DNA from: Vibrio sinaloensis
GTDB lineage: Bacteria; Pseudomonadota; Gammaproteobacteria; Enterobacterales; Vibrionaceae
Direction of reading: 5' to 3'
Length of the DNA stretch: 64,000 bases
NCBI RefSeq assembly: GCF_023195835.1
Contig: NZ_CP096199.1
Span: 2,418,001 to 2,482,000 of the forward strand
In this document: positions 6,082-13,741 of the stretch, one piece after another
Layout: every line of letters starts with the position of its first letter
Position numbering within the stretch: position 1 is the stretch's first letter
Made by a program: the position numbers and the translations under genes
The notes under the pieces: model-generated
What the model saw: the letters and a program-made list of their open reading frames with translations, nothing else
Told to the model about the DNA's origin: nothing
Databases searched by the model: none

Positions 6082-7758
6082 ATGGACCTGATCCTCTCAT
6101 TACTGCAGCAAATGTGTGTCTATCTGGTGCTTGCGTACATGTTGAGCAAGACACCTATCTTTCTGCCTTTACTGAATATTTCCAACCGGATTAGCCATAA
6201 AGTCAGCGTCTATGTTCTGTTTTCCCTGTTTTGTATTATGGGCACCTACTTTGGTCTACAGATCAATGATGCAATCGCCAATACTCGGGCGATTGGTGCT
6301 GTCATGGGCGGGCTGTTTGGTGGTCCTGTCGTCGGCTTCTTTGTCGGCCTGACTGGCGGTCTACATAGATACACTTTAGGCGGTTTTACTGATGTAGCTT
6401 GCGCTATCTCTACCACGGCAGAGGGCCTGATTGGCGGGTTGCTGCACACGTATCTATTGCGTAAAGGCAAGTCAGCACAGCTTTTTAATCCGAGTGTGGT
6501 GTTCTCCATCACCCTAGTTGCAGAAATTGTTCAAATGGCGATCATCTTGATCGTCGCCAAACCCTTTGACCAGGCCTACGCATTGGTTTCTGCGATTGCC
6601 GCGCCAATGATCATCGCTAACTCGGTCGGCGCCGCCCTGTTTATGAGTATTCTTGATGATCGAAAAACCATCTTTGAAGAGTATTCGGCCACCTTTTCTC
6701 GTCGCGCTCTCAACATCGCCGAACGCTCAGTTGGTATTCTCGCCTCTGGGTTTAATAGCAATAATGCCGAGAAGATAGCACGCATTGTTTACGAAGAAAC
6801 CAATGTTGGCGCGGTCTCGATTACCGACGATGAGAAGATACTGGCATTTGTGGGCATCGGTGATGACCACCATAAACCCAACACGCTCATTTCGTCGCAA
6901 AGCACGCTGGATGCCATTAGCCAAAACGACATTATTTACCTCGATGGCAAAGAGAAGCCTTATCAATGTTCATTGAAGCCAGACTGTAAGCTAGGTAGCG
7001 CGCTGATCATTCCGTTGAGAGCGGGAGACAAGGTGATCGGAACTATCAAGCTGTATGAGCCAAAACGAAAACTGTTTTCCACTATTAACATGTCGATGGC
7101 AGAGGGGATTGCCCAACTGCTCTCGAGCCAAATCTTATTTGGCGACTATCAACAGAAGCAAACCCTGTTATCACAAGCAGAGATCAAGTTGCTGCATGCG
7201 CAAGTCAATCCGCATTTTCTGTTTAATGCTCTCAACACGATTAGTGCCGTGATTCGACGCGATCCACCCAAAGCACGCGATTTGATACAACATTTATCGC
7301 AATTTTTTCGCAGTAACTTGAAACAGAACATCGATGTAGTCACGCTCAAAGAGGAGCTTGCACACGTCAACGCCTATCTCACCATTGAAAAGGCGCGCTT
7401 TACCGACCGCTTGGAGGTCGGTATCGATATTGATGAGTTACTATTACAACGTAAAGTGCCTACCTTTACCTTGCAGCCCTTGGTCGAAAACGCCATTAAA
7501 CACGGAATATCTCATCTGTTAGAAGGGGGAGAGATTCGCATTTTCAGCCAGTCAGTACCGCAAGGCCATCAAGTCGTCGTGCAAGACAACGCGGGGAGCT
7601 ATCAAGCACCACCAAGCGATCACCTTGGTCTGGGGATGCAGATTGTGGATAAACGCTTAACCAACAAATTTGGTCGAATCGCCGCGCTCAAGGTCGAGGT
7701 AAAACCAAACCACTATACTCGAATGAGTTTTATCATTCCGAGTCAGCACAATGAATAA
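6082..7758 (+). CDS. btsS: LytS/YehU-family sensor histidine kinase, BtsS-type (pyruvate sensor)
   Basis: 558 residues. The N-terminal 200 residues form a multi-pass 5TM-LYT membrane domain with the conserved run AVMGGLFGGPVVGFFVGLTGG. A GAF-like domain follows (about 215-345), then a His_kinase domain with the phosphoacceptor motif HPHFLFNALNTI... (NPHFLFNALNTI, His378 by codon count) and an ATPase domain with LQPLVENAIKHG. Similarity to E. coli BtsS (YehU, 561 residues) runs the whole length, including CIMGT, DDHHKPN and CSLKPDCKLGS. BtsS senses extracellular pyruvate. The cognate regulator starts nine bases downstream. A CstA-family carrier, the expected target class, lies 4.5 kb away. Confidence 0.9.
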   Translation: MDLILSLLQQMCVYLVLAYMLSKTPIFLPLLNISNRISHKVSVYVLFSLFCIMGTYFGLQINDAIANTRAIGAVMGGLFGGPVVGFFVGLTGGLHRYTLGGFTDVACAISTTAEGLIGGLLHTYLLRKGKSAQLFNPSVVFSITLVAEIVQMAIILIVAKPFDQAYALVSAIAAPMIIANSVGAALFMSILDDRKTIFEEYSATFSRRALNIAERSVGILASGFNSNNAEKIARIVYEETNVGAVSITDDEKILAFVGIGDDHHKPNTLISSQSTLDAISQNDIIYLDGKEKPYQCSLKPDCKLGSALIIPLRAGDKVIGTIKLYEPKRKLFSTINMSMAEGIAQLLSSQILFGDYQQKQTLLSQAEIKLLHAQVNPHFLFNALNTISAVIRRDPPKARDLIQHLSQFFRSNLKQNIDVVTLKEELAHVNAYLTIEKARFTDRLEVGIDIDELLLQRKVPTFTLQPLVENAIKHGISHLLEGGEIRIFSQSVPQGHQVVVQDNAGSYQAPPSDHLGLGMQIVDKRLTNKFGRIAALKVEVKPNHYTRMSFIIPSQHNE

Positions 7759-7767
7759 GGGACAGTT

Positions 7768-8487
7768 ATGCTGCGTGCATTGGTCATAGATGACGAACTC
7801 TTTGCTCGAGAAGAACTCACCGATCTGTTGCAAGAAACTGGTCACATCCAGGTAATCGATCAAGCCAGCAATGCCATTGAAGGGTTGAAGAAAATCAATC
7901 AGCTCAAACCTGAGGTGGTTTTTTTGGATATTCAAATGCCACAAATCAGCGGAATTGAATTGCTGGCCATGCTCGACCCAGAAACCATGCCTAAGGTTGT
8001 GTTTGTCACCGCCTATGATGAGTTTGCAGTGCAGGCGTTCGAGGACAACGCCTTTGATTATCTGCTCAAACCGGTTGATATCGCTCGACTTGAGAAAACA
8101 GTCAACCGCCTGCTCAAATCGCAACAAGTGAGCCGTGAGCAGCTTGCCGCCATTACTCCCCCTTGTTTAGATCAAGTGCCCTGTATCGGCCTCAATCGGA
8201 TCATGATCATTCCTACCAAAGATGTGGAGTTCGCCTACAGCGATATCAGCGGTGTTCACGTGCAAACCCATGAACAAAAAGCCACCTCACAACTGACATT
8301 GAAAGTTCTCGAGGAGAAAACGCCATTGGTGCGATGTCATCGCCAGTTTTTAGTCAATATTAAGGCAATCAAAGAGATCAAGCTGTTGGAGAATGGTCTT
8401 GCGGAGATCATCACCGTGAGCAACCACCCACTGCCCGTGAGTCGGCGCTACCTTAAAGCGCTCAAAGAGATGCTTGGCTTTCATTGA
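7768..8487 (+). CDS. btsR: LytTR-family response regulator, BtsR-type
   Basis: 239 residues, the same length as E. coli BtsR (YehT). The receiver domain occupies residues 1 to about 120, with the phosphorylatable Asp54 in FLDIQMPQISG, a Thr in FVTAYDE and the LKPVD lysine. A LytTR DNA-binding domain fills about 135-239 (VRCHRQFLVNIKAIKEI, LPVSRRYLKALKE). LytTR domains bind short direct repeats at spacings near two helical turns, which fits the 20-bp repeat array in front of the CstA-family gene. It is coupled to btsS (nine-base gap, AAGGGA ribosome site) and ended by a terminator. Confidence 0.9.
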   Translation: MLRALVIDDELFAREELTDLLQETGHIQVIDQASNAIEGLKKINQLKPEVVFLDIQMPQISGIELLAMLDPETMPKVVFVTAYDEFAVQAFEDNAFDYLLKPVDIARLEKTVNRLLKSQQVSREQLAAITPPCLDQVPCIGLNRIMIIPTKDVEFAYSDISGVHVQTHEQKATSQLTLKVLEEKTPLVRCHRQFLVNIKAIKEIKLLENGLAEIITVSNHPLPVSRRYLKALKEMLGFH

Positions 8488-11711: not shown

Positions 11712-12053
11712 CTAGTTTTGGTACTCACTCCAGCCACGCTGCCATTCCATTCGAAACTTTTGCGCTTCATCTGTGCCTTCACACACGCCTTGATAGTACT
11801 GACCCGACAAGCCCATTTGGTAAGCGAAATCTGGGTTGCAGTACTCGCCAATACCCTCTAAGTAACCTTGGTCGTAATCTGACTGCTTGGCACTTCCCAA
11901 GCTCGCGAGAGCTTTGGATGTCCGCGGCGTATGGCCAACGATGCCATCCTGATAGCCAATTTGATACCAGTCGCCCTCATTCGCCAACTGTTGTGGGCTA
12001 CTGGTACAAGCAGCCAACAATGCCGCCAACACAGCAATATAAAACTTTCTCAT
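11712..12053 (-). CDS. DUF2799-like small lipoprotein
   Basis: 113 residues. The N-terminus MRKFYIAVLAALLAAC is a lipoprotein signal peptide with lipobox LAAC; the mature protein would start at Cys16. The remainder holds two similar glycine/tyrosine segments (WYQIGYQDGIVG and DYDQGYLEGIGEYCN), typical of DUF2799 proteins, and further Cys residues. Function is unknown; outer-membrane anchoring is likely. The ATG has an AAGGA ribosome site. It is divergent from the CstA-family gene and shares its 200-bp control region with the five-repeat array. Confidence 0.75.
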   Translation of the reverse strand: MRKFYIAVLAALLAACTSSPQQLANEGDWYQIGYQDGIVGHTPRTSKALASLGSAKQSDYDQGYLEGIGEYCNPDFAYQMGLSGQYYQGVCEGTDEAQKFRMEWQRGWSEYQN

Positions 12054-12087: not shown

Positions 12088-12175
12088 ACCACTATTCGGA
12101 CTTGATTACCACTGCACTTGAGTAAAAACCACTCAGTTTCTCAAGCAACCGCTCATATCCCTATACGACCACTCA
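12088..12175 (+). promoter_or_regulatory. Five direct repeats of ACC(A/G)CT at an exact 20-bp period: candidate BtsR operator
   Basis: Units begin at 12088 (ACCACTAT), 12108 (ACCACTGC), 12128 (ACCACTCA), 12148 (ACCGCTCA) and 12168 (ACCACTCA), each exactly 20 bp from the next. The last three match ACC(A/G)CTCA, which I recall as the E. coli BtsR half-site, found there as two direct copies about 13 bp apart. Units decay away from the CstA-family gene, so the gene-proximal ones are probably the stronger. The array ends about 80 bp before the ATG, a normal activator position. The repeats are directly visible; the protein that binds them is inferred. Confidence 0.75.
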
Positions 12176-12256
12176 TTGGATAAGCGAATGCTGATAGTCA
12201 TTATTCAGCATAGTATGCACAGTGAGCTTATTAAATTTTACAAAGGAACGAGTGCT

Positions 12257-13741
12257 ATGTTGTGGTTTTTAACCTGTGTTGCGGCCCTAATTGGCGGCTA
12301 CTTTATCTACGGGGCTTTTGTTGAAAAAGTCTTCGGCATTAACGAAAAACGTCAAACGCCGGCGCATACTAAAGCAGACGGCGTTGATTACGTCCCAATG
12401 TCAACCAAGAAGGTTTACCTAGTTCAACTCCTCAATATTGCCGGTGTTGGCCCTATCTTTGGTCCTATCATGGGCGCCCTATATGGCCCTGCTGCTATGC
12501 TGTGGATCGTCGTCGGTTGTATCTTTGCTGGTGCGGTACATGATTACTTCTCTGGCATGCTTTCGGTACGTAACGGCGGAGCCTCTGTTCCAACCATCAC
12601 AGGTCGCTACTTAGGTAATGGTGCAAAACACTTTATGAACATCTTTGCCATTGTCCTTCTGCTTCTTGTTGGTGTGGTTTTCGTGTCTGCTCCTGCTGGC
12701 ATGATCACGAACCTTATCAATGATCAAACCAGCCTAAACGTCAGCATGACGACTATGGTTATCGCCATTTTTGCCTACTATATCATTGCGACCATCGTGC
12801 CTGTCGATAAGATTATTGGTCGCTTCTACCCACTGTTTGGTGCGCTACTGATCTTCATGTCTGTCGGCCTAATGACCGCGGTGGCATTCTCAAGTGAACA
12901 CACAGTAATGGGCGATTTCCAAGTGAGCGACATGTTCACTAACCTTAACCCGAACGATATGCCGCTATGGCCTGCACTATTCATCACTATTGCATGTGGT
13001 GCAATTTCCGGCTTCCACGCTACCCAGTCTCCACTGATGGCGCGTTGTATGGAAAATGAAAAGAATGGCCGCTTTGTATTCTACGGTGCCATGATTGGCG
13101 AAGGTGTCATCGCGTTAATCTGGTGTGCGATTGCATTGTCATTCTTCGGTTCTCTCGATTCACTTGCAGAAGCGGTGAAGAATGGTGGTCCTGGTAACGT
13201 TGTCTACAGCGCCTCATTTGGCCTACTCGGCGTGTTCGGTGGCATCCTTGCTTTCCTAGGTGTCGTTATCCTACCGATCACTTCTGGTGACACAGCATTC
13301 CGCTCTAGCCGACTAATTCTGGCTGAGTACTTCAATGTCGACCAAAAAGCGCTACGGAATCGCCTACTGATGGCAGTTCCACTGTTCATTATTGGTGGTA
13401 TTCTGACTCAAGTTGATTTTGGTATTATCTGGCGCTACTTCGGTTTCGCAAACCAATCAACCGCAGTGATGATGTTATGGACAGCATCGGCTTACTTACT
13501 GCGCCACAATAAGCTACATTGGATCACCACAGTACCTGCGGTATTTATGACCACTGTGTGTGCGACTTTCATTCTCAACAACAGTACCTTAGGCTTTGGG
13601 CTACCGATTGAAGTTTCGACTACTGCAGGCATTCTATTTGCCCTAGCGGTTGCAGGTTACGTCATCAAAACCTCCAAAGGAAAAGGTGAGACTGATTTAG
13701 CTGATGAAGAAAAACCACAAGCTGTCACCGAAACAGCTTAA
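12257..13741 (+). CDS. CstA-family transporter, probable pyruvate/peptide carrier
   Basis: 494 residues from the ATG at 12257, which has an AAAGGA ribosome site nine bases upstream; a longer in-frame reading from 12176 lacks one and overlaps the promoter. It is a polytopic inner-membrane protein with CstA signatures: HTKADGVDYVPM, AGVGPIFGPIMGALYGP, AGAVHDYFSGMLSVRNGG and a FHATQSPLMARC segment. E. coli CstA and BtsT are about 700 residues, so this belongs to the shorter CstA subgroup. CstA-family carriers transport pyruvate and peptides. Given btsS-btsR nearby and the repeat array upstream, pyruvate uptake is the likely role. I recall a BtsS/BtsR-controlled carrier named BtsU in V. campbellii; identity needs checking. 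Confidence 0.85.
   Translation: MLWFLTCVAALIGGYFIYGAFVEKVFGINEKRQTPAHTKADGVDYVPMSTKKVYLVQLLNIAGVGPIFGPIMGALYGPAAMLWIVVGCIFAGAVHDYFSGMLSVRNGGASVPTITGRYLGNGAKHFMNIFAIVLLLLVGVVFVSAPAGMITNLINDQTSLNVSMTTMVIAIFAYYIIATIVPVDKIIGRFYPLFGALLIFMSVGLMTAVAFSSEHTVMGDFQVSDMFTNLNPNDMPLWPALFITIACGAISGFHATQSPLMARCMENEKNGRFVFYGAMIGEGVIALIWCAIALSFFGSLDSLAEAVKNGGPGNVVYSASFGLLGVFGGILAFLGVVILPITSGDTAFRSSRLILAEYFNVDQKALRNRLLMAVPLFIIGGILTQVDFGIIWRYFGFANQSTAVMMLWTASAYLLRHNKLHWITTVPAVFMTTVCATFILNNSTLGFGLPIEVSTTAGILFALAVAGYVIKTSKGKGETDLADEEKPQAVTETA

Follow-up and report, generated by a model that had tools for sequence, protein, structure and literature searches.

The five direct repeats that precede a CstA-family transporter gene in Vibrio sinaloensis very probably constitute a multi-unit operator for the LytTR response regulator BtsR, as judged by comparison of promoters within the genus and beyond it. 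The array is one member of a widespread operator whose units vary in number and stand in phase with the promoter, and the initial annotation, which had drawn attention to the five repeats, understated what it observed. The best reading of the array is a BtsR operator of variable length in register with the -35 slot, to which BtsR would bind, perhaps cooperatively, and from which it would activate transcription of the transporter gene.

Five phased repeats upstream of the transporter gene

The window, by which is meant the whole stretch of 64,000 nucleotides that was analysed, contains five exact ACC(A/G)CT units on the plus strand, and a motif scan places the start of each unit exactly 20 bp from that of the next (Table 1); the coordinates and the spacing without deviation that had been claimed for them were thus borne out in full. 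The consensus core recognised by BtsR is ACC(G/A)CT(C/T)A, in direct orientation. The 6-mer part of this core is common to all five units, and the full 8-mer ACC(A/G)CT(C/T)A is present in three, namely the three proximal ones. The units had also been described as graded from weak to strong, and this description held in part: the proximal units are indeed the stronger, but the matrix scores (6.6, 6.2, 14.1, 12.3 and 14.1, from distal to proximal) form no smooth gradient, there being instead a step after the three strong proximal units.

In the 64 kb window, the 6-mer ACC(A/G)CT was found 96 times on both strands, against an expected 53.8 occurrences, and by arithmetic from the expected count the chance of five in-phase 6-mers is approximately 1e-12 per window. 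Across the window genome, which comprises 4.17 Mb on 2 contigs, the exact three-unit pattern matches 3 times, every one within this array.

Table 1. Array units, predicted promoter elements and neighbouring genes, with positions in the window
Feature	Coordinates	Strand	Remarks
Unit 5 (most distal), ACCACTAT	12088..12095	+	weak, core only; matrix score 6.6
Unit 4, ACCACTGC	12108..12115	+	weak, core only; matrix score 6.2
Unit 3, ACCACTCA	12128..12135	+	full consensus; matrix score 14.1
Unit 2, ACCGCTCA	12148..12155	+	full consensus; matrix score 12.3
Unit 1 (promoter-proximal), ACCACTCA	12168..12175	+	full consensus; matrix score 14.1
Predicted -35 slot, ATGCTG	12188..12193	+	20 bp after unit 1 start; poor TTGACA match; 17 bp from -10
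Predicted -10 element, TAGTAT	12211..12216	+	at +43 from unit 1
CstA-family transporter, BtsU-type, 494 aa	12257..13741	+	PF02554 E=2.4e-59
btsR, LytTR response regulator	7768..8487	+	NF008677 (NCBI BtsR equivalog) 364.1 bits, cut-off 246
btsS, LytS-type histidine kinase	6082..7758	+	PF07694 E=1.8e-61, PF06580
Divergent DUF2799 gene	11712..12053	-	PF10973; start 35 bp from distal unit

The PF02554 match confirms the CstA-family gene that had been placed downstream of the array. Its start at 12257 is backed by orthologs, the mechanical list of open reading frames beginning instead at a TTG at 12176, and its product is 99% identical to the transporter of Vibrio sp. JPW-9-11-11, the nearest named relative found. 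The btsS-btsR pair, which had been located 4 kb away, was likewise verified: the btsR gene ends 3.6 kb from the array, and its product scores well above the cut-off of the BtsR equivalog (Table 1).

On its other side the array faces the divergent DUF2799 gene, and the distance of only 35 bp between the distal unit and the start of this gene in the window would suit an arrangement of two back-to-back operators, the distal half of the array serving DUF2799. Such a division is improbable, however, as all five window units lie on the plus strand, and as in E. coli the array adjoins btsT, with tsr or a gene for a 4-hydroxyphenylacetate reductase flanking it on the opposite side.

Conservation of the array across the genus

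An ortholog of the transporter is present in 207 of the 216 genomes of the genus, each species being represented by one genome. The 206 promoter stretches that were retrieved, together with the window, gave 207 loci, none of which was dropped. The 450 bp upstream of each gene were searched by a matrix-plus-chain method, in which gaps of 17-24 bp were permitted and any gap other than 20 bp cost 1 bit; the matrix was trained on the loci that it scored, and shuffled sequences were scored with the identical matrix. Counting exact cores alone was dropped, because it undercounts the units, many of which deviate by a single change (GCC, ATT, GTT).

Of the phase and copy number whose conservation in related vibrios the initial annotation had named as a check on its reading, the phase is conserved at nearly all loci and the copy number varies. 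Between 3 and 10 units lie upstream of the orthologous transporter gene in 197 of the 207, and 615 of the 695 gaps measure 20 bp, the others being 21 bp (76), 22 bp (3) and 19 bp (1). One unit was counted at 8 loci, two at 2, three at 64, four at 48, five at 56, six at 7, seven at 8, eight at 4, nine at 4 and ten at 6. Among the named loci, ten units are present in V. harveyi, V. jasicida and V. owensii (L048, L052 and L053); V. rotiferianus (L046) also has ten when one mismatch is allowed, and 8 by the matrix. The similar standing of three, four and five units, at 64, 48 and 56 loci, reveals no preference for even numbers and argues against a strictly pairwise use of the units.

These arrays are not reproduced by shuffled sequence. 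Of 1,035 dinucleotide shuffles of the 207 upstream regions, 14 yielded two units and none more than two, and the real score exceeded the shuffle maximum at 199 of the 207 loci. The exact three-unit pattern matches 137 of the 216 genomes, and the reversed pattern matches none of the 216. In the 2.4 Mb of strand sequence surrounding 80 named loci, chains of three or more units (each unit scoring at least 6) number 76, all of them upstream of the transporter gene and none elsewhere. Among the matches listed, a single three-unit match lies off the transporter gene (G062, C2:1133367), which by estimate is about the level of chance across the genus. A separate case is G087, in which a 26-base string containing two ACCACT cores 20 bp apart is present in approximately 40 copies on both contigs, with 43 two-unit matches in total; this string probably belongs to a dispersed repeat that has nothing to do with the operator.

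The precision of the phase changes along the array. The proximal gap, between units 1 and 2, is 20 bp in all 197 arrays of at least three units, and gap 2 is 20 bp in 187 of 197; 21-bp steps become commoner from gap 3 outward (35 of 133 at gap 3 and 20 of 85 at gap 4). Together with the weakness of the distal units, these outer steps would be expected of a homotypic cluster in which BtsR occupies each unit independently, without contact between neighbours, so that extra units would only raise the filling of the proximal site through local concentration and a strict phase would matter near the promoter only. Yet sites without contact would not need a fixed spacing far from the promoter, and over up to ten units no gap falls outside 19-22 bp, even though 17-24 bp was permitted. 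Independent occupation is thus a tenable reading, but on balance a rather doubtful one. The genus presents in-phase direct repeats of variable number at gaps of 19-22 bp, as would a cooperative head-to-tail array, and the case for cooperative binding of BtsR to these units, taken as a hypothesis, is close to evenly balanced.

Co-occurrence of the array with BtsR

A BtsR ortholog (best E of 7.6e-91 or lower) was found in 203 of the 216 genus genomes, and the best match in the other 13 is 9.3e-34 or weaker. Five of these 13 genomes have nonetheless kept the transporter (G032, G067, G088, G112 and G122, whose loci are L323, L329, L328, L146 and L337, respectively), and the array is absent from all five, none of them exceeding one unit. 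Of the five promoters without an array, four can be aligned with one another, at 65-89% identity, and the fifth cannot, which indicates approximately two independent losses rather than five. All 202 genomes that possess both BtsR and the transporter show two or more phased units, or slots that can be recognised. At least three units are present in 197 of them, and two units in L216 and L338; of the remainder, which scored as single units, L151 and L154 have three slots when inspected by eye, the middle one being ACCAGT, and L159 has its array approximately 470 bp upstream, beyond the 450 bp that were scanned.

The presence and absence of the array therefore follow those of BtsR, in support of the earlier reading, in which the repeats are an operator for BtsR in front of a CstA-family gene, and at the level of sequence the membership of the array in the BtsR system is well supported. 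The window genome does contain two LytTR matches, the second of which, on the second contig, is a receiver-type regulator beside a kinase-like ORF (named by eye), and this regulator might conceivably bind the array in place of BtsR. That it does so is scarcely credible, however, given that, among genomes that have kept the transporter, the array is absent from precisely those that lack BtsR, and that the same units are present in the btsT promoter of E. coli.

In one Vibrio group (L323, L328, L329 and L337), which has neither BtsR nor the array, the transporter has been kept and the promoters share other sequence, with 65-89% identity; another regulator may have taken over in this group.

Register of the array with the promoter

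A simple promoter scan identified no consensus sigma-70 promoter, as would be expected of a promoter that depends on an activator. When the 197 loci are aligned at the proximal unit, conserved columns are found at fixed distances downstream of it: +20 is A in 86%, +21 is T in 73% and +22 is G in 96% of loci, and a -10-like element is apparent in the T at +43, the A at +44 and the T at +48, each in 97%. By a crude scan, the best -10 match begins at +43 in 127 of the 197 loci and at +41 in 46. The array thus holds a fixed register with the putative promoter, and the -35 slot and -10 element predicted in the window occupy these same columns (Table 1).

Six Photobacterium loci have a longer leader, and in these a TAnnAT box was placed by eye at +42, one base closer to the array. 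The leader of these loci (L092, L093, L098, L103, L104 and L107) is longer by approximately 60 bases and includes a shared stretch, also found by eye, of TTTTGCG followed by GAGGGTGT, which is possibly a leader RNA element.

Turnover and constraint among the distal units

On a gene tree of 81 loci, the number of units has changed at least 27 times; in 100 label shuffles, the changes averaged 43.5 and never numbered fewer than 39. One clean 20-bp block within the array separates L258 from L262, a pair that corresponds to V. fortis (L090) and Vibrio sp. D404a (L094), and another such block separates L212 from L210. A bulk tally of gaps between relatives of unequal unit number (200 pairs, 71 loci) has no peak at 20 bp, the commonest in-array gaps being of 1 bp (49) and 6 bp (23), as against 8 of 20 bp; gain or loss of a whole unit is therefore demonstrated for the two single pairs only. 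Intergenic length shows a weak trend with unit number (r=0.27, n=68), and r is 0.36 in the lipobox subset (n=37).

The full consensus is present at ranks 1, 2 and 3 in 128, 125 and 156 of 197 arrays, respectively, and falls at rank 4 to 35 of 133 and at rank 5 to 23 of 85; at ranks 6 to 10 the corresponding counts are 17 of 29, 9 of 22, 6 of 14, 0 of 10 and 0 of 6. Both this fall beyond the third unit and the frequent changes on the gene tree raise the possibility that only the three proximal units work, and that units from the fourth outward are relics of unit duplication in neutral drift. Relics would not, however, be expected to retain their cores above their own spacers. In ungapped pairs, identity of core and spacer is 0.90 vs 0.61 at rank 4, 0.81 vs 0.54 at rank 5 and 0.71-0.79 vs 0.57-0.62 at ranks 6-8, as taken from 323 ordered, non-independent pairs of 98 loci, in which a phase shared after unit turnover could also raise core identity. 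A version of this comparison with gapped alignments was replaced by the ungapped one, as alignment bias was possible. Since the distal cores exceed their own spacers in identity, the distal units are probably under selection, albeit weaker than that on the three proximal units, and the relic reading is unlikely.

Relation to known operators

The array resembles the BtsR operator at btsT of E. coli in its core, its direct orientation, its CstA-family target and its BtsS-BtsR partner. The operator of E. coli BtsR (YehT) at btsT (yjiY) has reportedly been described as two repeats. The known pair at that promoter is 21 bp apart, whereas the window array has five units with four gaps all of 20 bp, and relatives have up to ten units; the E. 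coli form is thus not the one found in the window.

According to published accounts, BtsS and BtsR control btsT, reportedly as their single target, and in yehT mutants of Salmonella the transcript most strongly lost is cstA1 (log2 about -6.4 and -7.3). BtsR motifs have been reported in most species tested, V. harveyi among them, in an article whose covered text gives no number of repeats (PMC5552118). LytTR operators more generally are described as direct-repeat pairs with spacers of 10-13 bp, and three-repeat operators have been published for RcoM1, with repeats of 8 bp and spacers of 12-13 bp, and for CoxC, for which all three repeats are needed for efficient binding. These operators are similar to the window array in combining LytTR domains with evenly spaced direct repeats, but RcoM1 and CoxC are one-component CO regulators with three repeats and a different motif, and CoxC represses.

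Three further regulators offer comparisons. YpdB (PyrR), a LytTR response regulator related to BtsR and likewise acting on direct repeats, binds as monomers to two such repeats at yhjX, its phosphomimetic form doing so in order and cooperatively; unlike in the window, its site consists of two repeats, with a different motif and target. ArcA is also a response regulator on a variable number of direct repeats, its sites containing 2-5 repeats of differing strength with footprints that suggest cooperativity, but it belongs to the OmpR/PhoB family and has an 11-bp period and many targets, whereas the window array has a LytTR regulator, a 20-bp period and apparently one target. BldC similarly forms multimers, arranged head to tail, at sites that vary in their number of direct repeats, but it is a MerR-like protein of solved structure, and its 9-bp sites follow one another at intervals of about one helical turn. 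Among the titles, openings of abstracts and passages of the literature that were covered, none was found to describe a LytTR operator of more than three repeats. Within this literature, therefore, the statement that no five-site LytTR operator had been described was upheld, with the qualification that three-repeat ones (RcoM1, CoxC) are already published.

A proposed mechanism

In the mechanism proposed for the BtsR operator, BtsS would sense external pyruvate and give rise to phosphorylated BtsR, which would bind the units side by side, in a single orientation and along almost the same face of the DNA. Since a poor -35 element follows the proximal unit at exactly one period (20 bp), BtsR bound there would be placed so as to retain RNA polymerase at a promoter that is weak by itself, and would thereby induce the pyruvate transporter BtsU. 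The conserved working core would consist of the three proximal units, and the extra distal units, gained and lost in evolution, would raise occupancy and perhaps also steepness.

A stronger form of this mechanism can be entertained, in which BtsR forms a head-to-tail chain over up to ten units, the -35 slot receives RNA polymerase as though it were the "next unit", the length of the array acts as a free evolutionary dial for the threshold and gain of a one-target regulator, and the textbook two-site operator of E. coli is itself a three-unit member. Taken jointly, these propositions are tentative, and their all holding together is more doubtful than probable.

The promoters of the genus constitute a natural series with one gene and one regulator, distinguished chiefly by how many phased sites they contain (2 to 10); such a series allows a test of the general question of how, in bacteria, threshold and steepness depend on the number of sites. 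The array also bears on the manner in which LytTR regulators align along DNA.

Phased units in E. coli and other enterobacteria

The family to which G549 belongs was searched in 119 genomes, each from a different genus; a CstA/BtsT-type match was obtained in 70, and the best 30 of these 70 were taken with their flanks for unit counting. At a lax threshold, at least three units were counted in 29 of the 30 btsT promoters (three in 24, four in 4 and five in 1) and two in the remaining one; when only units scoring at least 6 were counted, 28 of the 30 had at least three. Between the last unit and the start of the match, the distance is 116-280 bp at 29 of the 30 loci, L379 being situated at a contig end. 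In 600 shuffles of the 400 bp upstream, three units arose in 1 and two units in 5, and the best shuffle score was 12.6, as compared with a lowest real score of 15.5. Upstream of the second site, the sequence that matches it best is at an offset of 20 in 26 of the 30 loci and of 21 in 2. Because these promoters mix gaps of 20 bp (51), 21 bp (12) and 22 bp (2), the 21-bp pair is a variant rather than a defining feature of BtsR operators.

In the btsT promoter of E. coli, the order of elements is GCCGCTCA, 20 bp, ACCGCTTA, 21 bp, ACCACTCA, and a third BtsR unit is thus probable 20 bp upstream of the known pair. This unit is GCCGCTCA in L113 (706-713) and in L380, and ACCGCTCA in L381-L383. L380-L383 are four further E. 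coli strains, chosen among 14 listed of 5,333 matching genomes, and in three of the four the third unit has the full consensus. The YehT oligonucleotide for yjiY in PMC4847170 is the same stretch of the E. coli promoter, and the core ACC(G/A)CT(C/T)A agrees with it. These observations suggest that the current picture of the E. coli operator lacks a conserved third site, and that its two-site switch may be a short version of a longer, adjustable one.

Elsewhere in the order, other families have either a pair of units at 21 bp with btsR beside it (L115, L117-L119) or three units at 20 bp (L127-L131). An order-wide two-unit pattern matches 88 of 394 genomes; some of these matches were not counted as operators, being simple 7-bp repeats or having no CstA gene nearby, and 6 of the 30 loci retrieved are of this kind (L114, L120, L122-L124 and L141). 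The reversed control of this pattern is frequent in a few genomes, with 60 matches in G000 and 22 in G341.

Three enterobacterial loci (L132, L133 and L134) have a three-unit array before a CstA paralogue that is approximately 35% identical to the window protein over the N-terminus, and in these genomes the operator seems to be attached to a different transporter. The gene at the array in G322 is approximately 49% identical to E. coli BtsT. Finally, a unit pair and the sequence preceding it are present twice on the minus strand of L128, at 1335 and 1481, apparently by partial duplication of the operator region.
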